Positions 7,563-51,368 of a DNA stretch of 64,000 nucleotides are shown here, in pieces. The position numbers were made by a program, and so were the translations under genes. The DNA is taken from the IMG/VR virus record IMGVR_UViG_3300044614_002195, positions 62,001-126,000 of that record, one strand, 5' to 3'. Under the pieces are notes generated by a model. That model was not told where the DNA came from. It did no database searches and was given only the letters and a program-made list of their open reading frames with translations. Positions within the stretch are counted from its first letter, which is position 1. Each line of letters opens with the position of its first letter. The stretch comes from a virus.

Positions 7563-9578
7563 ATGAGTGTAGAATTTATAACAAAAAATTATCCAGCCAA
7601 TGACGTCACAGACGGACAATTTCTGTACAGATCGCTGGGCTCTTTTTGGACGTATATTTTTTCAGATAAAAATCTACTCAAAGGTTATACAACAGGTATG
7701 GCCGAAGAACTGATTCAGGCATATTACACACTCACGGAAGTTATCAACCAGTATTCAGTAAAAGATGTGCCTATACTGCATAAAGAAAAATGGTACCCTT
7801 TAAAAATAAAAAAATCTGAGTTTAATAAAACTAAGTTTATATTCGAACCAGGCGGCGCGGTGTTCGGTCCACAATCCAACGAAGATGAGTTTTATCCGAA
7901 CGCCCTGTTCAGGTTTGGTTATCCTAAAGAAACGTCAGGTACTGTTTACAGCTTTCAGCCGTCAGATGAATTAAAGAAATTTGGAGCTATATCCAATAAG
8001 ATCATAGCTCCTTCGTTATTACTTCTACCTGGGGTAGATGTAATTGTTAACGGCTCAACATTATTCTTTAACTTAGACTTATTTAATCACCCTAATATTC
8101 CAAAAGTTAAATTAGTTGAAGATCTGGGGGAGTACAAAACGTATACAGACAGTGAAGGCAACACCGTCATTGACGAGTATATTGTTCTATGGGTTTATAA
8201 CGCAGAGATAGACAATAAGCAGTTATACCAAAATTTTGGAGTACTGTTTGATATAAATATGCCTTCAAATGAAGCTTATAAATCTCTGCTAAAGACTATG
8301 ATGAACATGGCTGTTGAGGGGCCCACAATGGCTGCACTAAAAGCAGCGTTTGCTTCACTGGCAGGCATACCATTCATCATCGAATCTGAAGAAACTATCG
8401 AGGATATATACTCTGATGAAAAAAACACCTATATTATCACAGATAGTCACGTTTATAAGGTAGAAATTGACAGGCCTTTAAGTCGCAATGCACGTATAGC
8501 CGCAAAGCTGTATGCTGGAGATATACTAACTGACGATGTTAAATTATTAGACACCGTCACCTCAGGAGATTGGTGGAGTCGAGAGATAGAGTCTAGTAAA
8601 CTAGGCTTTTCTTCTCATATATTTTTAGCAGATATTAAAAAACAACTCTTTTTTGAAAATGGTGCCGCTTTAATAACTTACAGGCGAGGCAAATTAAACT
8701 TTCCAGTTATGGGAGATAGTAAAGATATCCAAGCTTTCAATGACTATATAAATATTCCTGTGAATAGGGTAAACATCATTGATTCGCTAGGGCTATACGA
8801 TCAACTGCCAATAACTATAGAAGATGAAACAATTTTAGATATACGTAAAGGTCCTGGATTTGAGCAGTATATAATTACAGACCATAACGCTTATCTTATA
8901 CCCAAAGACAGGATACTCATACCTTCTGTAGCTTTGCAGACTAAAATAGCAAAAGGCACAACCATCGTCGAATTACATCCAGAAGAATTAGTGGAAGATT
9001 TATACCCCCTTGGAGAAGCCAGGGTTTTAAATATCAACCCAGTAGATTTTGTTTTTAAAACGCTAATTAAAAACAATACAGCCTTACTTAAGTTAAAATT
9101 TTATTCAGAACCGCAGCTGAATCTATTCTTTAAACTGCTACCACTATTGCGCACATATTTACCTCCCCATGTATATGTACTAGTCTACATGAACTATAAC
9201 TTACCTACAGAAGTTTGGGAAAATTTTAACCTAGGCTTAACCATACTAGATTTCCCAGGACAGAAATTCAGTTTAGATGGATCAACAAAAACAGGGGAAA
9301 GACCAGGAAGCCTAGAGGACGGAAAATATTATAAAGATTATAAAAATCGATTATTTTGCGTATCTGTAAGTCCTCAAAAAGACGGTCTACCTCTTCATGA
9401 CAATGCGAACATAGATACGCTTAATGTAGACAATTCGAACAACCCAAGCTCTTCACCTGGAATAAAGTGCGGTATGTTGCGTACAGAGATTCCTTCCCAG
9501 GTAACACCTCCAGGACAAACAACAGCCAGACGCCCATCTACCAGAGAAATTCAGTCTATCTTATTAATCGACTTTTAG
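7563..9578 (+). CDS. Large baseplate-associated protein, 671 aa
   Basis: No named family recognised. The first 80 residues (KNYPANDVTDGQFLYRSLGS, then a helix with YYTLTEVINQYS) resemble the N-terminus of proteins encoded just after J-like genes in large phages, probably a wedge or wedge-fibre connector. The rest is mixed beta and helix, with a Ser/Asn/Pro-rich tail. A TTG at 7551 in the same frame overlaps the J gene, but I chose ATG 7563 because it has the CTTATG context common in this genome and lies 4 nt after the stop. Confidence 0.6.
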   Translation: MSVEFITKNYPANDVTDGQFLYRSLGSFWTYIFSDKNLLKGYTTGMAEELIQAYYTLTEVINQYSVKDVPILHKEKWYPLKIKKSEFNKTKFIFEPGGAVFGPQSNEDEFYPNALFRFGYPKETSGTVYSFQPSDELKKFGAISNKIIAPSLLLLPGVDVIVNGSTLFFNLDLFNHPNIPKVKLVEDLGEYKTYTDSEGNTVIDEYIVLWVYNAEIDNKQLYQNFGVLFDINMPSNEAYKSLLKTMMNMAVEGPTMAALKAAFASLAGIPFIIESEETIEDIYSDEKNTYIITDSHVYKVEIDRPLSRNARIAAKLYAGDILTDDVKLLDTVTSGDWWSREIESSKLGFSSHIFLADIKKQLFFENGAALITYRRGKLNFPVMGDSKDIQAFNDYINIPVNRVNIIDSLGLYDQLPITIEDETILDIRKGPGFEQYIITDHNAYLIPKDRILIPSVALQTKIAKGTTIVELHPEELVEDLYPLGEARVLNINPVDFVFKTLIKNNTALLKLKFYSEPQLNLFFKLLPLLRTYLPPHVYVLVYMNYNLPTEVWENFNLGLTILDFPGQKFSLDGSTKTGERPGSLEDGKYYKDYKNRLFCVSVSPQKDGLPLHDNANIDTLNVDNSNNPSSSPGIKCGMLRTEIPSQVTPPGQTTARRPSTREIQSILLIDF

Positions 9579-9589
9579 CTTAAAAACAA

Positions 9590-9595
9590 TATAAT
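9590..9595 (+). promoter_or_regulatory. Possible -10 element close to a start codon
   Basis: A perfect TATAAT lies 7 nt before the ATG at 9603 in a 24-nt gap between structural genes. A start site about 7 nt downstream would give a leaderless or nearly leaderless message. There is no TGN extension and no clear -35 element, so this may simply be AT-rich start context. Confidence 0.25.
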
Positions 9596-32900: not shown

Positions 32901-33449
32901 ATGAAGAGTAAAAAAGAAATATTAAAAGATGAGAAAGCTCCTGTACTGGTCTTGCTTGCGCTCGTAACTAAAGAATACGGTAAAGAGTGCTATGAGTGGG
33001 AACCTCTTGTTTTAAAAGCAGAACTGCAGGAAGATTTTGATGTAACTATCTCAGATTTGCAGTCAGATAAAATACAAGCAGGCATCACAATCTTAACCAC
33101 AGATCAGTACGAAACAAACGTGCCTGTTTTTGAGACTCTCAACTATCTACTAAACAATCAGCCTGACGACCTGCAAGACTTTAATCCGCTTGAAGCAGAA
33201 GAGGTGATATGTGGATTAACAGAGGCGTATCTGATCCGAGGAGAAAAAATGCACTTCTCTCCTGAAATTAGGGTGTACACAGGATTAATATTTGAAGATT
33301 ATGGTATGCACAAGCCGCCTACGTTGTTCCCTGAAGCCTTAATGAAAGAGCGCGACGGCAATGATGAAACCAAGAACGATGCTCTCCAAGAGTTGTTTGA
33401 CGAAAAAATTAAACTTGTTAAAAAATACTTAGACAATGCACATTTATAA
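32901..33449 (+). CDS. Unrecognised acidic protein, 182 aa
   Basis: No family recognised. It is mostly helical and acidic. A longer frame begins inside the previous gene at 32865, but I chose ATG 32901 because of the TATATG context and 7-nt spacing. Its end overlaps the AAA+ ATPase start by 14 nt, so the two are probably coupled and it may be an adaptor of that ATPase (inference). Confidence 0.55.
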   Translation: MKSKKEILKDEKAPVLVLLALVTKEYGKECYEWEPLVLKAELQEDFDVTISDLQSDKIQAGITILTTDQYETNVPVFETLNYLLNNQPDDLQDFNPLEAEEVICGLTEAYLIRGEKMHFSPEIRVYTGLIFEDYGMHKPPTLFPEALMKERDGNDETKNDALQELFDEKIKLVKKYLDNAHL

Positions 33450-34548
33450 CGCGCAGCTTCATGATATTTATGAGAAGCCCAACGCCAAAAGGTTGGAGCA
33501 TCTGTATAACAAGCTTTTTAAAACTATACCCACCACAGTCAGCTTTTCTGATAACTTTGAGATGGATTCACTGAAGGCTATCGAAGAGCACTTTGATATC
33601 TTCACGAGTGATATAACGGTAGTAGGTTCTAGACTTGTAGAGGAAACAGTGTGGGTAGGCAAGGCTGGTAAGTACGAAGATATCCTACTACATTCCTCGT
33701 ATAGGTCTCCAGATGGAGACCATCCTATGCTGGGTTCAGTATTTGGTAGCAGTATTAAAAAAGAAGAGATCGATAGCTTGCATGTAAGTGTTAGAGCTGC
33801 ATGTAAAGACAGAGAAGAGGCCAAGCTGTTATGCGATCTTTTGTTACCGTTTAAACTGCAGCTTAAAAATAAGATTTACATGCTTACAGCTAGCTATGGA
33901 GATCTCAGCCTATCTCCGTTGCCCACAATGGATGTAAACGGTAATTTAGCTCTAAACTATGGCTCAGAGTTCGAAGCTTTTCATGAAAAAATCATGGATA
34001 GCCTTAAAACAAAAACATCTGGGCTGTATCTGTTCAGCGGGCCTCCAGGTACAGGCAAATCATCTTACATCAAATATCTCACAACCTGCGATATCGGACG
34101 TAAGATAGTATACATCCCAGGAGGGATGATTGAACAGCTTGTATCTCCTGAGATGGTTCCGCTACTGGTCGAGAACAAGAATATTATTCTGGTAATCGAG
34201 GATGCTGAGAAAGCTTTAATCTCTAGAGAAGTATCAGCAAACACAGACATGGTACAGACTGTACTCAACCTTACATCAGGCTTCCTTGGCGATGCGGCTA
34301 ATGTTTCTATCATTGCCACATTCAATACATCCAAGGATAACATTGATTCTGCGCTACTACGTAAAGGTCGATTGAAGCTTAGTTATGAGTTTGATAAGCT
34401 CTCATTAGCGGACACTATCAATTTGGCTGAATCTCTAGGATTAAATACCTCCAAAATTACTGAAGGTATGACTCTTGCAGATATCTACCATATGGAAGAG
34501 CAGCCAGGCTATGAGAAGCCAGAAGAAAAGCGCGTAGGCTTTTTCTAA
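33436..34548 (+). CDS. AAA+ ATPase, BCS1-like arrangement
   Basis: This 370-residue protein has Walker A GPPGTGKS at residues 202-209 and Walker B ILVIEDAE at 251-258. A sensor-1 region follows (SIIATFNTSKDNID), then a finger-like ALLRKGRLKL. The 200-residue N-terminal part is of its own kind. The spacing and the 'll.kGR' box put it in the classical AAA group (BCS1/FtsH-like), which unfolds or remodels protein complexes as a hexameric ring. Its substrate is unknown. It ends 4 nt before the convergent terminase gene with no terminator between them. Confidence 0.82.
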   Translation: MHIYNAQLHDIYEKPNAKRLEHLYNKLFKTIPTTVSFSDNFEMDSLKAIEEHFDIFTSDITVVGSRLVEETVWVGKAGKYEDILLHSSYRSPDGDHPMLGSVFGSSIKKEEIDSLHVSVRAACKDREEAKLLCDLLLPFKLQLKNKIYMLTASYGDLSLSPLPTMDVNGNLALNYGSEFEAFHEKIMDSLKTKTSGLYLFSGPPGTGKSSYIKYLTTCDIGRKIVYIPGGMIEQLVSPEMVPLLVENKNIILVIEDAEKALISREVSANTDMVQTVLNLTSGFLGDAANVSIIATFNTSKDNIDSALLRKGRLKLSYEFDKLSLADTINLAESLGLNTSKITEGMTLADIYHMEEQPGYEKPEEKRVGFF

Positions 34549-36444: not shown

Positions 36445-36612
36445 ATGAGTAGAACTATTAGAAAATATCAGGTCAGAGATAAACGAAATCGGTATAAGCA
36501 GATCGAACGTCAAAAGCTGGAAGACCAGTATTATACAGATGTAGCAAAATCGCATGACAGAAAAATCCGTAAAAAGGGTCTTCGAGAAGAAGAATCCGAC
36601 GAACAGCAGTGA
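36445..36612 (+). CDS. Small highly charged protein, 55 aa
   Basis: It starts at ATG 36445 in the GTTATG context, 10 nt after the -10 element; an upstream TTG in frame is not needed. It is rich in Arg, Lys, Asp and Glu (RTIRKYQVRDKRNRYKQIER) and wholly helical. The last 59 nt overlap the AT-hook gene. Function unknown; nucleic-acid binding is plausible from its charge. Confidence 0.55.
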   Translation: MSRTIRKYQVRDKRNRYKQIERQKLEDQYYTDVAKSHDRKIRKKGLREEESDEQQ

Positions 36613-37144
36613 TATAAGTAATATAAAAAGAGGGCGAGGAAGACCAAAGGGCGCCAAAAATAAACCAAAAGTTGAATCTGTTCCGACTGTAGCTAAAAAA
36701 AGAGGTCGGCCTAAGGGTTCAAAGAACAAAGTTAAAACAAGCAGTTATCAGGAAATTCAAGTAAAAGGTAAGTACCTTAACCCTATAGCTTCGGCTAAAC
36801 CTGAAATAGCTCGCATTCCTAAACCTCCAGGTAAAAGAGGAAGACCTAGGAAAAACGATAACCCACTAGCTGCGTCTTCAGTTAAAAAAGAAGAGCAGAA
36901 GGCTGAACTACCTACAACATCAGGTAATCATCCCTTATTTCCAGCCGTAGCCTGGCTTGAAAAAAATATGCATCACAACGAGCTGCAATACTATCGCAGT
37001 CGTGCGCACAAAATAGGCTCAACCATACAGGTAGCCATAGCTTCAGACATCCTGGGTTTCTTTAATGTTCAGGATGCGGAGATATGCAAACAAATCAAGA
37101 AAAACACATTCATCGCAAGCGTAACAAAACATGAACTGCATTAA
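36554..37144 (+). CDS. AT-hook DNA-binding protein
   Basis: Three AT-hook motifs are visible: RGRGRPKGAK with its core at residues 29-31, KKRGRPKGSK at 49-58 and KRGRPRK at 94-100. AT-hooks bind the minor groove of AT-rich DNA. The N-terminal half is disordered and basic. The C-terminal 80 residues (HPLFPAVAWLEKNMHHNELQ onward) look folded and have no recognised family. It could be a nucleoid-type or transcription-regulating protein. It is coupled to the next gene, the AAA+ ATPase, by a 14-nt overlap. Confidence 0.75.
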   Translation: MTEKSVKRVFEKKNPTNSSDISNIKRGRGRPKGAKNKPKVESVPTVAKKRGRPKGSKNKVKTSSYQEIQVKGKYLNPIASAKPEIARIPKPPGKRGRPRKNDNPLAASSVKKEEQKAELPTTSGNHPLFPAVAWLEKNMHHNELQYYRSRAHKIGSTIQVAIASDILGFFNVQDAEICKQIKKNTFIASVTKHELH

Positions 37145-38720
37145 TAAAATCAAAAACTATCAAAGAGCCGGCTATTCTGGTGTATTCGTACTAACTCACG
37201 AAGAAGCCAGATTCATGCTCGAGCTTACAACTCTAAGCAACTTAGAGTATAATGCTCTCAACATTGTCGAATGGGACACACAGAAAGGCCTTCTATTCCG
37301 ATCAGGAAAAACTAAAATAGGGTTTCAAGAGGACACTACTAAAAACACTAGCGATCTACTGGAATATATTCAAAATTATTCGCAGACCAATACAATCTTT
37401 GTGTTGAAAGATTTTCATCTGCATTTTGATAAAATTCTCAATATTCGTCTATTGAGGAACGCTTGGAATAACCTAAAGCGAATGGGTAATATGATTGTTT
37501 TTGTAGGGCATAAATACGCAGTACCCGGCGAGCTCCAAAAGGAGGTACAGCTACTAGACTATGACCTTCCAAATATAGAAGCACTTACCGAGAGGTTGAT
37601 GTATATCAAAAGCTCGATTGATAAAGGCAGAGAAGAGGCAGGTAAGGCGCCTACTGAGCTTGATAACAGTATTATAGAGGCAGCAACGGAAGCTGCGAGA
37701 GGCATGACCAGCCTTGAGGCTGAGAACGCTTTTGCTTCCGCCTGGACAGAAACCGGAAAGTTTAATAGCGTTTTTGTTGAAGCAGTATTTAAAGAAAAAA
37801 TTGCGCAGCTTAAAAAGAACGGATTGTTGACCTACATGGAGCCAAACATCAGCTTTGATAATGTTGGCGGCATGCAAGGCCTAAAAACCTGGCTAACTAC
37901 TAGGAAAAAAGCGTACGCTAAAGAAGCTAGAGCATACAATCTACCTTTACCTAAGGGTATGCTATTGGCCAGTGTGCCAGGTACTGGGAAAAGTCTGATT
38001 TGTAAGGCAATTGCTAAAGAGTTTGACTGCCCGCTGTTTGCTCTGGATATTGGTAGCGTATTTGATTCGCTTGTTGGTAGCAGCGAAAAGAATATGCGAG
38101 AGATCATTAAAACTGTTGAAAGCGTGGGTAAGTGTGTGATCTTGATTGACGAGATCGAGAAAAGCTTGAGTAACAGCGCAGTCAGTGGCTCTGGAGACAG
38201 TGGCGTAGGCAGCCGTATCTTCGGTACTTTCCTGAGCTGGCTAAATGACCGCACAAATCCTGCGTTCATTGTTGCCACCACGAACAACCACACACTGTTG
38301 CCTGCAGCATTGATCCGCAAGGGTCGTTTTGATCAACTGTTCTGGGTAGACCTACCTACAGCAGAAGAGCGTAAAGAAATCTTCACTGTCGTGATTAATA
38401 AGTATAATAGAGATCCAAAAAACTTCTCTATTAAAACTTTAGTAAACGGCTCTGAAAACTTTACAGGCGCCGAGATTGAAGAAGTGTTTAAAGACGCGCT
38501 ATACAAAGCGTTTGATGCTGGTGAAGAAATTAATGATAGCCATGTTATGGAGGTACTGTCGGAGTTTATTCCGTTCGCAGTGTCACATGAAGAAGATCTA
38601 AAGACGATGCGCAAGCAAGCGCAAGGTAAGCTAGTTATGGTAAACAGTAAAGGTGATCCTATTGCTGACGTTCAGAAAAACATGAGAAAGCTGAGTATTG
38701 CAATCGGGGTAGAAGAGTAA
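37131..38720 (+). CDS. Ycf46-like AAA+ ATPase
   Basis: A 529-residue protein in the plastid/cyanobacterial Ycf46 layout. The N-terminal 200 residues resemble the Ycf46 leader (YSGVFVLTHEEARF, then EWDTQKGLLF). Then comes FDNVGGMQGLKTWL at about 242-255 and Walker A SVPGTGKS at 281-288. LDIGSVFDSLVGSSEKNMRE, Walker B VILIDE (336-341) and the Gly/Ser loop SGDSGVGSRIFGTFLSWL, typical of Ycf46, follow. Sensor 1 is VATTNN (381-386) and the finger box is ALIRKGRFDQLF. It is probably a protein-remodelling ring, substrate unknown. It lies upstream of DUF1257- and DUF2997-like genes. Confidence 0.85.
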   Translation: MNCINKIKNYQRAGYSGVFVLTHEEARFMLELTTLSNLEYNALNIVEWDTQKGLLFRSGKTKIGFQEDTTKNTSDLLEYIQNYSQTNTIFVLKDFHLHFDKILNIRLLRNAWNNLKRMGNMIVFVGHKYAVPGELQKEVQLLDYDLPNIEALTERLMYIKSSIDKGREEAGKAPTELDNSIIEAATEAARGMTSLEAENAFASAWTETGKFNSVFVEAVFKEKIAQLKKNGLLTYMEPNISFDNVGGMQGLKTWLTTRKKAYAKEARAYNLPLPKGMLLASVPGTGKSLICKAIAKEFDCPLFALDIGSVFDSLVGSSEKNMREIIKTVESVGKCVILIDEIEKSLSNSAVSGSGDSGVGSRIFGTFLSWLNDRTNPAFIVATTNNHTLLPAALIRKGRFDQLFWVDLPTAEERKEIFTVVINKYNRDPKNFSIKTLVNGSENFTGAEIEEVFKDALYKAFDAGEEINDSHVMEVLSEFIPFAVSHEEDLKTMRKQAQGKLVMVNSKGDPIADVQKNMRKLSIAIGVEE

Positions 38721-38751
38721 ACAATAAACAAACAATTAAACAATAAATTAT

Positions 38752-39753
38752 ATGACAAACGAATATCAAGTAACTGAAACATTGCAGAAATATTATGACA
38801 AAGTTTTCCAAGACGGAAAGCTTGTAAATATTCACATCGGTATGTGGGGAATGAGTTATAACCTCACAGAAGAGGACATTAAGCTCGATAACAAGCTACC
38901 AGATACTATCAAGCTGGGTAAGAAAATGCTTATCAAGCCTGCAGTATACAACAAGTTCAAGAACATTGAGCAAAAGATCCGTAAATATCTTTACGTTAAT
39001 TCTTTTGATTTCCCTCTAGTAAGTCAGGCGCATTTTGTACCTAAGGCAAAGTATCTAGAGGTTTACACGACGCTAGATAAGATGCGCGTTGAATTCATGC
39101 AGATGGTTGACGAGTTCGTAGAAAAATACGAAGACTATAAGAAGGAGGCTATCGCATATTACCAAGAGCATAAGGATACGGTTAGTGTAGACGATTTAGA
39201 AAAATACTATCCAGCTGCAGCTAATGTACGAAGCAAGTTTTACTTCGACATTGTATCTTTTGAAATTGCACTACCTGCTGAGTTTAAAGAACTCAATTTG
39301 CAGGATGAGATCAATCGAGAAATTGCTGGAAAAGAGGCTAAGTCAAAGGCGCTTGAGAACTATAAAACTGAGTATGGTAAGCAGATCAGTACGCACATGG
39401 CAAAGATCAACGACTTTGTGGGTGAAGTCACAGCCACATTGCGTTCAAAGATCGTTGAGCATTGCTCTAAAGCCCTGGATAAAATAAACAAGAAAGAAGT
39501 TGTGTCTGAGTCTAGCATCAAGACATTGCTTAAGCATATTCAAGAGTTCAGAGATATGAACTTTGTTGACGACAAGGCCGTTGAGGCTGAGTTGGCTAAA
39601 GTTGAGCGTTTACTTGTAGGTAACCACGACTTTGATAAAGACAAGGACGCCATGGGTCTACTTCAGCAGCATCTGAACACTCTTGTAAAAGAGGCTGAGA
39701 GTCTGTCTGACGTAGCAAACGTTTCAGGTGAATATTTCAGGAAACTTGCATAA
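38752..39753 (+). CDS. Coiled-coil protein following the AAA ATPase (DUF3150-like?)
   Basis: This 333-residue protein is mainly long charged helices. Its N-terminal part (VNIHIGMWGMSYNLTEEDI) and the following helices are reminiscent of DUF3150 proteins, which in other genomes sit next to MoxR-type AAA ATPases, but I cannot confirm this. It probably partners the upstream Ycf46-like ATPase. A 31-nt AT-rich gap with no structure separates the two genes; the start has TTATATG. Confidence 0.55.
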   Translation: MTNEYQVTETLQKYYDKVFQDGKLVNIHIGMWGMSYNLTEEDIKLDNKLPDTIKLGKKMLIKPAVYNKFKNIEQKIRKYLYVNSFDFPLVSQAHFVPKAKYLEVYTTLDKMRVEFMQMVDEFVEKYEDYKKEAIAYYQEHKDTVSVDDLEKYYPAAANVRSKFYFDIVSFEIALPAEFKELNLQDEINREIAGKEAKSKALENYKTEYGKQISTHMAKINDFVGEVTATLRSKIVEHCSKALDKINKKEVVSESSIKTLLKHIQEFRDMNFVDDKAVEAELAKVERLLVGNHDFDKDKDAMGLLQQHLNTLVKEAESLSDVANVSGEYFRKLA

Positions 39754-39756
39754 CCG

Positions 39757-40059
39757 ATGTATCCAGGAGACGATCAAAACGAAACAACTGACCCTCCATA
39801 TTTTGACACCCTAACTGTCAAGTTTAGGGGAGACAATTATGAGGTTGCATTACCATATTGCGAAGTAGCCAATGGCGAGATCACCGAGATAAATGACAAG
39901 GCTGTTAAGATAGCTTATTTAAAAGATGGAGTGAAAGATACTCTGGTAATGTCACATCCTGATTTTGTCACAGTTATTGAAAAAGCATTCGATATCAAAG
40001 AAATCACAAAGCTGAGCATACAGCGCGCCAACAGCTACGACACAATAAAAATATTATGA
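39757..40059 (+). CDS. Small protein in the Ycf-like module, 100 aa
   Basis: No family recognised. It has a strand-rich N-terminal part (FDTLTVKFRGDNYEVALPY) and a final strand-helix. It begins 3 nt after the preceding stop and overlaps the DUF1257-like gene's ATG as ATGA, so it is part of the same translational unit and may be a component of that system. Confidence 0.6.
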   Translation: MYPGDDQNETTDPPYFDTLTVKFRGDNYEVALPYCEVANGEITEINDKAVKIAYLKDGVKDTLVMSHPDFVTVIEKAFDIKEITKLSIQRANSYDTIKIL

Positions 40060-40445
40060 GTCATTCAGTAGACATCAAAACACAGTTCAAAAATACCAAT
40101 AATCTACTTGCGCAGTTTAAAGCGCTTGGGTGGAGGATTGAAATGAATACGAAGTGTACAACATATCCTAGCGATCCTCGCCGTGGAGAGATACACAAGT
40201 ATGTAGCAAAAAACCCCAGTTCTGTAGGATACGATGTGGGAGTTAACCTAGATAATGAGGGTAACGCCTACTTTGTGTGCGACTTCTATGATCGTAGCAT
40301 CGAGCAGAGCTTGGGTAAAAACCTGCAGAAAGTCAAACAGGGCTATGCACTCAGCGAAATCAAAAAGCGCTTGCGTGAAGAAGACCTGGAATATAAGGTA
40401 AGCGAACTACCTACAGGCGAGCTAATCGTGGTTGCTGAAAAATAA
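40056..40445 (+). CDS. DUF1257 (Ycf35-like) protein
   Basis: The 129-residue protein has the DUF1257/Ycf35 pattern. It begins MSHSVDIKTQFKNTNNLLAQ ('MSHf..ikT.i.d...L...L'), has a central strand pair (AYFVCDFYD) and continues with KVKQGYALSEIKKRLRE, matching the family's 'i.q.Ya...v...l...G'. The family is conserved in cyanobacteria and red-algal plastids and its biochemical role is not settled. Here it is tightly packed between two small genes downstream of the Ycf46-like ATPase. Confidence 0.75.
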   Translation: MSHSVDIKTQFKNTNNLLAQFKALGWRIEMNTKCTTYPSDPRRGEIHKYVAKNPSSVGYDVGVNLDNEGNAYFVCDFYDRSIEQSLGKNLQKVKQGYALSEIKKRLREEDLEYKVSELPTGELIVVAEK

Positions 40446-40446
40446 T

Positions 40447-40647
40447 ATGTCTAAAAAAATAGTATTTAAAATTACTAAAGATGGCGATGTTGTAGTTGAT
40501 AAAGTTGAAGGCTACGGATCGTCATGTCTTGAGGCTACCAAGTTCATAGAAAAAGCCTTGGGTAAAGCAGATGAGTCTACTCGCAGAATGACTGAGGAAT
40601 ACGAAGAACCTATAAAGGTAGATAATTCTGAGCGTATACGCAATTGA
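40447..40647 (+). CDS. DUF2997-like small protein
   Basis: The 66-residue protein has the DUF2997 pattern: KIVFKITKDGDVVVDKVEGY, then SSCLEATKFIEKALG with one conserved-looking Cys, ending in the acidic-aromatic EEYEEP. In cyanobacteria DUF2997 genes lie beside DUF1257 genes, as here. The start at 40447 is at a TAA-T-ATG junction; the stop overlaps the next ATG (TGATG). Confidence 0.72.
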   Translation: MSKKIVFKITKDGDVVVDKVEGYGSSCLEATKFIEKALGKADESTRRMTEEYEEPIKVDNSERIRN

Positions 40648-40907
40648 TGAAAACAGTCATATACGTAGACAAAGATGGCAACGTCAGCGGACTGGCTGAC
40701 GATGTTATAGATAGATTGACTTCTCTAGGTAACAAGCAAGTAACCCGAGTATCTAATGTGGAATTTGACCATACAACACAGTTATGGTCAGCCACAGATC
40801 TCGATGGAGCAGTCATAGCTACCAGTCCAATCAGGAGCGAGGTAATCAATATGGAACGAGATTACCTAAATAAAAAAATAGAAGAGAGCTTCGCAGCTTC
40901 CCTCTAA
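40647..40907 (+). CDS. Small protein closing the Ycf-like module, 86 aa
   Basis: No family recognised. It begins KTVIYVDKDGNVSGLADDVI, a strand-turn-strand start rather like its DUF2997-like neighbour, then has a second strand pair (TTQLWSATDLDGAVIATS) and a final helix. The ATG overlaps the previous stop codon (TGATG). It is the last gene before a 49-nt gap that contains a hairpin. Confidence 0.6.
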   Translation: MKTVIYVDKDGNVSGLADDVIDRLTSLGNKQVTRVSNVEFDHTTQLWSATDLDGAVIATSPIRSEVINMERDYLNKKIEESFAASL

Positions 40908-50295: not shown

Positions 50296-50481
50296 ATGTT
50301 GTGCGACGAAATTGAGCAAAAGCTGCGAAAGCAACTCGCAGATATAAAAGTGTGGGCTACTCATTTGATAGAGAATAGTCGACCACCAGCAAACCCTGCA
50401 GGAGAGTCTAGCTACTATTGCGCTAAGGCTTTTCTGACAGAAGAGTTGAAAAAAATTGTAACAGAAGAAACACATAAATGA
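50296..50481 (+). CDS. Small helical protein, 61 aa
   Basis: No family recognised; a helical N-terminal half (DEIEQKLRKQLADIKVW) and a polar linker. The start has AATTATG. It is ATGA-coupled to the endonuclease gene that follows. Confidence 0.5.
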   Translation: MLCDEIEQKLRKQLADIKVWATHLIENSRPPANPAGESSYYCAKAFLTEELKKIVTEETHK

Positions 50482-51368
50482 TTAAACGAGGCGTTTGCTG
50501 TATTGTGCTGGCTCTAGAGCCTTTGAAGTTCAGAACTATCACATACAAAAGCTTCAGCTCTCTACCAAGGGAGCTGGGGCTGGCAAAGCTAGGCGAAATC
50601 ATCGAGCACAACCTCGATGTTACCGCGCGAGCTATAGCTTATTGTGGAGAGCATAATCTAAACTACAGATTGAGCTCCAGCCTGTTTCCGCTTATTACAT
50701 ATGATAAGGCGGAGGTAAAGATGAGGGATTTGCCTAATTTTTTCCAGATATTGGCAAAAATTCAATACGTCAAAGATACTAGAGAAAAGTTCCCTGATGC
50801 GAGGCTGAGCATACATCCTGATCAGTTCAATGTTCTAGCCAGCGAAAATCAAGACGCTGTAATTAGAACAATCAGAGAGCTAGATTTCTATTCAGACTTT
50901 ATGAACGATATTGGCTGCTATGATATCATTATGAATCCTATCAATATTCATATGAATGCTAACGGAGACTGGGATAAGATTGCAGACAAGTTTGTAGAAA
51001 ACTATTCTAGATTGAAACTGCATACCAGAATGCGTCTTGTGTTGGAGAATGACGACAAGGTTTCAGGCTGGAGTGTTAAGAAACTAGATCAGTATATGAA
51101 GCCTAGAGGAGGTTTTCCTATCACCTTCGACTATCTGCATCATAAGTGCCACCCTGATGGGCTCTCTGAAGAAGAGGCATTTAACATTGCCTACGAATCG
51201 TGGGGACCAATAATTAGACCATTGTTTCACTATAGTGAATCAGCTCCAGATCAAAACAACCCTCGTAAACACGCAGACTATGCTACAAGGTTGCCAGATA
51301 CGTATGGTAAGTCTATAGACCTAGACTTCGAGTTTAAGCTGAAAGAAAAGTCATTTGAGAATCTATGA
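50478..51368 (+). CDS. uvsE: UV damage endonuclease, UvdE/UvsE family
   Basis: This 296-residue TIM-barrel protein starts with GVCCIVLALEPLKFRTITYK. It carries the family's metal-binding motifs: LSIHPDQFNVLAS, NPINIHMNANGD, LVLENDDKV, FDYLHHKCHPDG and FHYSES. UvdE nicks DNA 5' of UV photoproducts and other distortions to start excision repair. In a phage it would repair UV damage in the infecting genome. It is ATGA-coupled at both ends. I see no truncation. Confidence 0.92.
   Translation: MIKRGVCCIVLALEPLKFRTITYKSFSSLPRELGLAKLGEIIEHNLDVTARAIAYCGEHNLNYRLSSSLFPLITYDKAEVKMRDLPNFFQILAKIQYVKDTREKFPDARLSIHPDQFNVLASENQDAVIRTIRELDFYSDFMNDIGCYDIIMNPINIHMNANGDWDKIADKFVENYSRLKLHTRMRLVLENDDKVSGWSVKKLDQYMKPRGGFPITFDYLHHKCHPDGLSEEEAFNIAYESWGPIIRPLFHYSESAPDQNNPRKHADYATRLPDTYGKSIDLDFEFKLKEKSFENL

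Follow-up and report, generated by a model that had tools for sequence, protein, structure and literature searches.

The window analysed here is a 64,000-nucleotide stretch of the IMG/VR virus record IMGVR_UViG_3300044614_002195, a large phage. It carries a run of genes in which a Ycf46-type AAA+ ATPase is followed by DUF3150, DUF1257-like and DUF2997 proteins and preceded by an AT-hook protein.

36554..37144, plus strand: AT-hook protein, 196 aa, with three [KR]GRP motifs (Pfam AT_hook, 0.0063, just short of the cut-off)
37131..38720, plus strand: A, Ycf46-type AAA+ ATPase, 529 aa (Pfam AAA, 1.7e-28)
38752..39753, plus strand: B, DUF3150 protein, 333 aa (PF11348, 5.5e-13, above the cut-off)
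39757..40059, plus strand: C, fast-evolving 100-aa protein without an assigned family (tblastn, 28 of 30 relatives)
40056..40445, plus strand: D, divergent DUF1257 (Ycf35) homologue, 129 aa (profile matches)
40447..40647, plus strand: E, DUF2997 protein, 66 aa (PF11211, 38.8 bits against a cut-off of 24.1)
40647..40907, plus strand: F, 86-aa protein (profile matches in other phages and plasmids)

The initial annotation had claimed a six-gene module at 37131-40907 with couplings through its last four genes, and both the reading frames and the couplings from C to F are borne out (ATGA between C and D, TAA-T-ATG between D and E, and TGATG between E and F), with a gap of 3 bases between B and C. 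Its gene inventory was incomplete, as it missed the AT-hook gene 5' of A, which shares 14 bases with A, and gene X, which most relatives have between their D and E genes. X is missing from the window phage and was not found when looked for elsewhere in that phage, and a search of the phage for Hsp70 gave just one spurious match on the opposite strand and no real gene. SbcC/SbcD, helicase and polymerase genes are also present in the window, and replication and recombination genes lie 3' of the module.

The ATPase and its partner families

The assignments of A as Ycf46-like and E as DUF2997-like both held up, E matching PF11211 at 8.7e-10 with a G-C-T-E-G pattern. A matches PHROG 8638 at 3.4e-118 over residues 5-505, while its Pfam score for AAA_lid_3 is under the cut-off for that family, and the phage A profile matches cyanobacterial AAA proteins at 3e-123. 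Compared with proteins from cyanobacteria other than Synechocystis (and thus not with slr0374 itself), A is ~35% identical from end to end, N-domain included. Its Walker A (281-288), Walker B (335-345), sensor 1 (380-386) and Arg finger (396/399) motifs are all present, and the catalytic motifs are invariant in 18 relatives. From these motifs, A is predicted to consist of a degenerate N-terminal AAA-like domain that lacks Walker A and an active C-terminal AAA domain. The model of a cyanobacterial relative of A gives a fold match to the two-domain p97/Cdc48, Rix7 and DRG1 unfoldases; in that model the N-domain of Ycf46 resembles an AAA domain, the first of two and degenerate, in a p97/Cdc48-like layout. 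The likeness is in the two tandem AAA domains; in contrast to those unfoldases, A has no Walker A in the first domain and no Cdc48 N-domain, and its pore loop (DSLVG) is non-aromatic, which leaves classical threading unassured. In its matches, A belongs with the Cdc48-like classic AAA proteins and not with MoxR, and in the tree the window AAA falls outside the cyanobacterial clades.

The DUF1257 assignment stands at the level of families but not of the single sequence, since D alone scores 0.038 against Pfam DUF1257 (PF06868; 14.6 bits, under the gathering cut-off of 22.2). An HMM built from 19 phage D proteins only, however, matches a bona fide cyanobacterial DUF1257 protein at 2.5e-15 and other cyanobacterial DUF1257 proteins at ~2e-6, hhalign of the D family against DUF1257 gives 6.7e-7, and the family profile contains the DUF1257 motifs, namely the conserved MSH start, YDxG and QxY. 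The sequence homology of D to DUF1257 is thus secure, and because the single sequence is below the Pfam cut-off we call D a divergent homologue and not a Pfam-threshold member. The MSH start is fixed in 82 of 83 DUF1257 proteins, and the G, C and T of DUF2997 are invariant in 53/53 sequences, both sets being drawn from phages and cyanobacteria. A profile made from very divergent DUF2997 sequences contained no stretch with enough conservation for searching. Sequence searches of the PDB with D and E gave no match, the best that Foldseek reached there with the D+E model was an unreliable match at E 0.097, and no fold of known function was matched by either protein. It should be noted that the D+E model is a phage pseudo-fusion read through the stop codon, that a second such model joins cyanobacterial A and D in the same manner, and that both bear on fold only.

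B, which had been annotated as a coiled-coil protein, is more fully described as a member of DUF3150 (49.2 bits against a cut-off of 24.9), and the phage B profile matches a DUF3150 protein of a Manganitrophus plasmid at 4.9e-19. The F profile matches proteins of the phages RHph_I4 (9.6e-7), SM1 (9.2e-6) and HJ05 (2.4e-5) and of Rhizobium (4.3e-11) and Manganitrophus (0.002) plasmids. C has no match in Pfam.

Conservation in phages, plasmids and cyanobacteria

Gene order is colinear in 39/39 related IMG/VR loci, and where these loci are long enough to judge, B is present in 30/30, D in 28/28, E in 27/27 and F in 27/27, which makes the module more than a chance grouping. The neighbours of A do not vary independently, the exceptions being X, lost in the window phage, and the fast-evolving C. 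An ORF directly 5' of A is present in 31/39 relatives; it has AT hooks in 30 of these 31 and overlaps A in 27. The AT-hook gene was observed in the phage family of the window alone, the AAA genes of other lineages having no such gene before them, and its product is a probable DNA-binding partner of the module.

Relatives in named phages were found via A and via the DUF1257 protein of RHph_I4; direct tblastn searches of these phages with D, B and E gave no matches. Genes A, D, E and F occur together in Rhizobium phage RHph_I4, Aeromonas phage HJ05 and Pseudomonas phage SM1 in the same order as in the window, but with an AAA protein of a separate clade, followed, where DUF3150 would stand, by a protein of 201-212 aa that belongs to a different family. 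A, D and E are also found in Rhodobacter and Agrobacterium phages, while in Catdawg and Javan368 the AAA is present and D and E are not detectable. In several other phages the module comes after endolysin or tail genes. Nitrospirota plasmids (Candidatus Manganitrophus, CP114559 and CP114562) share the AAA, DUF1257, DUF2997 and DUF3150 genes and an F-like gene, for which the match is the weak one given above, in a different order and without C, X or the AT-hook gene. Plasmids of Vibrio, Azospirillum and Methylobacter resemble the module in that DUF3150 adjoins an AAA+ ATPase; these ATPases, however, are of the MoxR/CbbQ or another short type, and the clusters encode a vWA protein and have neither DUF1257 nor DUF2997.

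The cellular chromosomes surveyed were cyanobacterial, and the records were located with an approximate probe (92-99% identical) and are themselves the evidence. They contain two arrangements. In RHH-AAA-DUF1257 operons, which match the Synechocystis slr0373-slr0374(Ycf46)-slr0376 stress operon, a Ycf46-type AAA with the whole-length identity to A given above adjoins a DUF1257 gene, slr0376 being inferred to be DUF1257 from gene order. They differ from the phage module in having no adjoining DUF2997, DUF3150 or F, and an RHH protein rather than an AT-hook protein upstream. In the second arrangement (L229, which holds the DUF1257 matched at 2.5e-15, and also L230, L240 and L241), AAA, DUF1257 and DUF2997 lie together as in the phage; these chromosomal clusters also encode a protein of 180-240 aa and a member of the Hsp70 family, and lack DUF3150 and F. 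A DUF2997-Ycf35-ferredoxin cluster also exists in cyanobacteria, as does a DUF1257 domain fused to a NACHT-like protein 3' of a MoxR-vWA operon. A further DUF1257 fusion, in a long open frame of L226, was rejected because the match lies in a doubtful frame.

The families had been described as best known from cyanobacteria and plastids, which is correct, but they are not confined there, and the names DUF1257 and DUF2997 already appear in the Rhizobium phage and Manganitrophus plasmid records. The earlier suggestion of one functional unit gains support from the occurrence of A, D and E, with F or DUF3150 in some cases, on unrelated phages, on the reordered plasmids and on cyanobacterial chromosomes. 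Because the same gene set recurs on such different replicons, the ATPase and the DUF1257- and DUF2997-type proteins very probably function together as one machine.

A proposed protein-remodelling machine

We propose that the module is a mobile AAA+ protein-remodelling machine, with a p97/Cdc48-like ATPase and small partner subunits, a reading to which we assign a probability of roughly 0.55. A would work as a hexamer. Of its two rings the first would be inactive and the second active, as its motifs and the two-domain layout modelled for the cyanobacterial relative suggest. Its constant partners, as judged from recurrent clustering, are DUF1257, DUF2997 and F, which would bind A and are probably adaptor or substrate-handling subunits, and DUF3150, found also beside MoxR-vWA-type ATPase genes on plasmids, would be an exchangeable scaffold or recruiting subunit. 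In the phage family of the window, the AT-hook protein may carry the machine to DNA. In the weakest step of the proposal, ATP-driven threading at DNA would take protein complexes of the phage or the host apart, or bring them to maturity, while infection is in its phase of replication and recombination. Weighing against the proposal are the non-aromatic pore loop, the phages in which the AAA stands without detectable D and E, the fact that D and E match no fold of known function, the other lineages in which the AAA has no AT-hook gene before it, and the lack of Hsp70 in the window phage.

Other roles for the module have to be weighed against this one. The invariant DUF2997 Cys and Thr and the nearly invariant DUF1257 MSH start would also suit metal or cofactor insertion, or enzyme activation, of the kind carried out by MoxR/CbbQ and cobaltochelatase ATPases, with DUF1257 and DUF2997 binding or delivering a metal or redox center and the AAA driving insertion; the cyanobacterial ferredoxin cluster, the lowered carbonic anhydrase activity upon loss of Ycf46 (PMC7496141) and the plasmid DUF3150 genes adjoining AAA and vWA genes are in line with this. 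We give it a small chance of being right, as A is Cdc48-like and not MoxR, Pfam finds vWA in none of the seven module genes, and no metal-site family was matched. Membership of the MoxR-vWA systems as such is ruled out by the type of A and the lack of vWA. A chaperone for virion assembly, as proposed for MoxR-vWA pairs of jumbo phages and an Acidianus virus (PMC7824862), would agree with the position of the module after endolysin or tail genes in several phages, but the same families are also found where there are no virions, on cyanobacterial chromosomes and on plasmids, and the genes 3' of the module in the window are for replication and recombination, so that its chance is smaller still.

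A defence or counter-defence system has a slim chance: the AAA domain of A scores 7.2e-29 against IetA models and a cyanobacterial DUF1257 is fused to the NACHT-like protein, yet PADLOC gives no match besides IetA. That match is limited to the generic AAA domain and the subtilisin-like protease partner IetS is absent among the module genes, by which membership of IetAS is ruled out. Finally, an effect of Ycf46 on how Synechocystis utilises CO2 (Jiang 2015, as that work is cited in PMC7496141) could point to an auxiliary module that tunes the carbon metabolism of a photosynthetic host, a role that we find very improbable given that the module is also in Rhizobium, Pseudomonas and Aeromonas phages and Nitrospirota plasmids and that the window AAA is not nested in cyanobacterial clades.

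We put forward more tentatively, as a possibility well short of even odds, that DUF1257, DUF2997 and F with the Ycf46 ATPase constitute an undescribed class of mobile AAA+ machine common to phages, plasmids and cyanobacterial chromosomes, in which DUF1257 and DUF2997 would be a chemically active adaptor pair; the candidate active residues are the invariant N-terminal Ser-His of DUF1257 and, in DUF2997, the Cys and Thr that never vary. Among the open-access papers searched, none describes the module. Its recurrence as a compact set on unrelated replicons, once in a different order, leads us to expect an ATPase served by small proteins dedicated to it, and provides a testable parts list of AAA, DUF1257, DUF2997, F and, optionally, DUF3150. 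Phages of laboratory hosts that carry the module (of the Pseudomonas SM1 type, Rhizobium RHph_I4 and Rhodobacter RcDurkin) make it experimentally accessible. The genes ycf46 and ycf35 are conserved in plastids and cyanobacteria, and if the reading as a new class of machine is true, study of the phage version would lead to the function of both.

Gene content of the module and its relatives

The whole virus record comprises 198,289 bases and carries terminase, DnaB-like helicase, DNA polymerase and SbcC/SbcD-like genes, and we therefore assign it to a tailed phage, the nearest named terminase relatives being those of Salmonella phage Arash and Vibrio phage D69 at merely ~30% identity. All six open reading frames of the initial annotation, together with their couplings (C/D ATGA, D/E TAA-T-ATG, E/F TGATG), are found in the window:

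37131-38720, A, Ycf46-type AAA+ ATPase
38752-39753, B, DUF3150 protein
39757-40059, C, small protein
40056-40445, D, DUF1257 (Ycf35) relative
40447-40647, E, DUF2997 protein
40647-40907, F, small protein

The families proposed in that annotation were recovered from Pfam for A (AAA, 1.7e-28; AAA_lid_3 under its cut-off) and E (DUF2997, 8.7e-10), but D matched DUF1257 only weakly and under the cut-off (0.038), and the protein described as a coiled coil proved to be DUF3150 (B, 5.5e-13). No Pfam family was found for C or F.

Searching IMG/VR with A gave 39 loci, all colinear in gene order, and wherever the sequence suffices B is present in 30/30 loci, D in 28/28, E in 27/27 and F in 27/27. An AT-hook gene lies upstream of A (36554-37144 in the window); among the 31 relatives with a readable adjacent ORF it overlaps A in 27, and AT-hook-like motifs are retained in 30. 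Most relatives have an extra gene, X, with the strongly conserved motif CPxEKKHTVxIKFxYDKxGxF and no Pfam family, which a search showed to be absent from the window and from the remainder of the phage record:

L010:9307-9591 (an IMG/VR relative) and 20 other relatives, X, ~95 aa, between D and E

The A gene is split in five relatives (L030, L031, L033, L034 and L036) by insertions of ~0.8-1.1 kb that bear HNH or LAGLIDADG-like homing-endonuclease ORFs and lie near Walker B, though not all at a single position, and the DUF3150 gene of L033 is similarly interrupted (8516-9595). These are probably self-splicing introns or inteins; Rfam intron models gave no match to them at threshold. An abiF RNA (RF03085) scores over threshold upstream in two relatives (L030:1676-1713 and L031:1583-1619), with none in the window. 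The window also encodes a second AAA protein (33436-34548, 370 aa, PHROG 14322) ~3.7 kb upstream of A, kept in nearly all relatives having enough sequence, and a UvdE-family UV endonuclease (50478-51368, 1.6e-35).

Anatomy of A, D and E

An HMM built from 19 phage D proteins only gave 80 matches in 80 cyanobacterial DUF1257 loci (best 1.8e-6) and reached 2.5e-15 against a second cyanobacterial DUF1257 type (L229), and hhalign gave 6.7e-7. For genes of those kinds the Pfam DUF1257 model itself yields scores of ~80 to 160 bits. The sequence MSH stands at the extreme N-terminus in 82 of 83 D/DUF1257 sequences, and Y-D-x-G, D and Q-x-Y are likewise preserved. By these comparisons D of the window is a homologue of DUF1257, which we term divergent because the single sequence scored under the Pfam threshold.

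A is ~35% identical end to end to the cyanobacterial AAA protein. A cyanobacterial relative of A was modelled (mean pLDDT 76) and matched p97, Cdc48, Rix7 and DRG1 in the PDB over roughly 530-600 columns, which indicates that the N-terminal “Ycf46 domain” is, as modelled, itself an AAA-like module, the second in the protein, and bears a helical lid. Phage A lacks Walker A in this domain, where a Walker-B-like FVLKDFH is retained; its C-terminal AAA domain is complete in catalytic motifs and has a non-aromatic pore loop (DSLVG). The ATPase is apparently intact, and the layout would be that of a protein-remodelling ATPase in which one ring is dead and the other live.

D is modelled as b-a-b-b-b-b-a-b-b, with pLDDT >90 over most of its length, and E as b-b-a; the D+E model found no reliable match in the PDB. 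Because the Cys and Thr of DUF2997 are invariant (53/53 sequences) and the MSH start of DUF1257 is fixed, a metal or redox role for these families may be considered.

Related clusters in cyanobacteria, phages and plasmids

DUF1257, present in 50 of 98 cyanobacterial genomes sampled (those without it being mostly small), was seen in three contexts: (i) an RHH-like protein, a Ycf46-like AAA and DUF1257, the AAA lying 111-203 bases upstream of DUF1257 in 72 of 80 loci, while several of the remaining eight end at contig ends; (ii) DUF2997, Ycf35 and ferredoxin; and (iii) AAA, DUF1257, DUF2997, a ~180-240 aa protein and an Hsp70-family protein. Context (i) corresponds to the Synechocystis stress operon slr0373-slr0374(Ycf46)-slr0376 (PMC7496141, also PMC7283877), in which slr0376 would, from gene order, be the DUF1257 gene; EcaB carbonic anhydrase activity is reported to fall on Ycf46 inactivation (Jiang et al., 2015, as cited in PMC7496141). 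For the clusters of context (iii) no description was found in the open-access literature.

L229:2667-7615 (cyanobacterial locus), clearest example of context (iii)

Three other cyanobacterial loci (L230, L240 and L241) have these genes in altered order, and L228 has AAA and DUF1257. At L225:3102-4772 a protein with a NACHT-protein-like N-terminal part ends in a DUF1257 domain (Pfam 3.4e-17), which might serve there as a sensor or decoy. At L242:737-4595 the genes for a MoxR-like ATPase and a VWA_CoxE protein are followed directly by a third gene and then by one for a protein with a DUF1257 domain, so that DUF1257 has here an AAA partner of another kind. On the cyanobacterial contig L244 a partial Ycf46-like AAA lies together with DUF2997 and a divergent DUF1257, next to a possible MT-A70-like methylase; this may be the module in mobile-element form.

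Rhizobium phage RHph_I4 encodes an AAA, a 212-aa protein, DUF1257, DUF2997 and an F homologue, as do Aeromonas HJ05 and Pseudomonas SM1. In Rhodobacter RcDurkin and Agrobacterium JP1 the set comprises A, D and E, while the presence of F is uncertain in both; D of JP1 is the weakest case, identified by position, MSH start and a profile that itself contained it. In Mycobacterium Catdawg and Streptococcus Javan368 the AAA is present with no detectable D or E. The set is also borne by Rhizobium plasmid p7 (109 kb), probably a phage-plasmid, with cell-wall-hydrolase and DnaB genes close by. On plasmids of Vibrio, Azospirillum and Methylobacter, DUF3150 has a vWA gene and an AAA ATPase nearby, the latter of CbbQ type in Azospirillum.

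Nitrospirota (Candidatus Manganitrophus) plasmids carry AAA-DUF1257-DUF2997-DUF3150-F-like, thus sharing five families with the window, and the changed gene order favours a functional link between them over synteny kept by descent alone. Since a 100/100 branch of the AAA tree parts the family of the window from that of Rhizobium, Aeromonas and Pseudomonas, finer placement being unsure on long branches, the module either is old or was assembled more than once.

A possible remodelling machine

The DUF names already stand, singly, in the GenBank records of phage I4 and the plasmids. Neither a phage DUF1257/DUF2997 nor a phage ycf46 module was found in open-access titles and abstracts, nor any mention of DUF3150 in the open-access literature, searches that took in few subscription papers, and an earlier description of the module may exist.

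These families cluster recurrently across unrelated replicons. The initial annotation had suggested a single machine; we infer that A is bound by D, E and F, which would serve as its adaptors or substrate handlers. Given the AT-hook protein encoded next to A and the replication and recombination genes around the module, the phage version may act on DNA-associated complexes.
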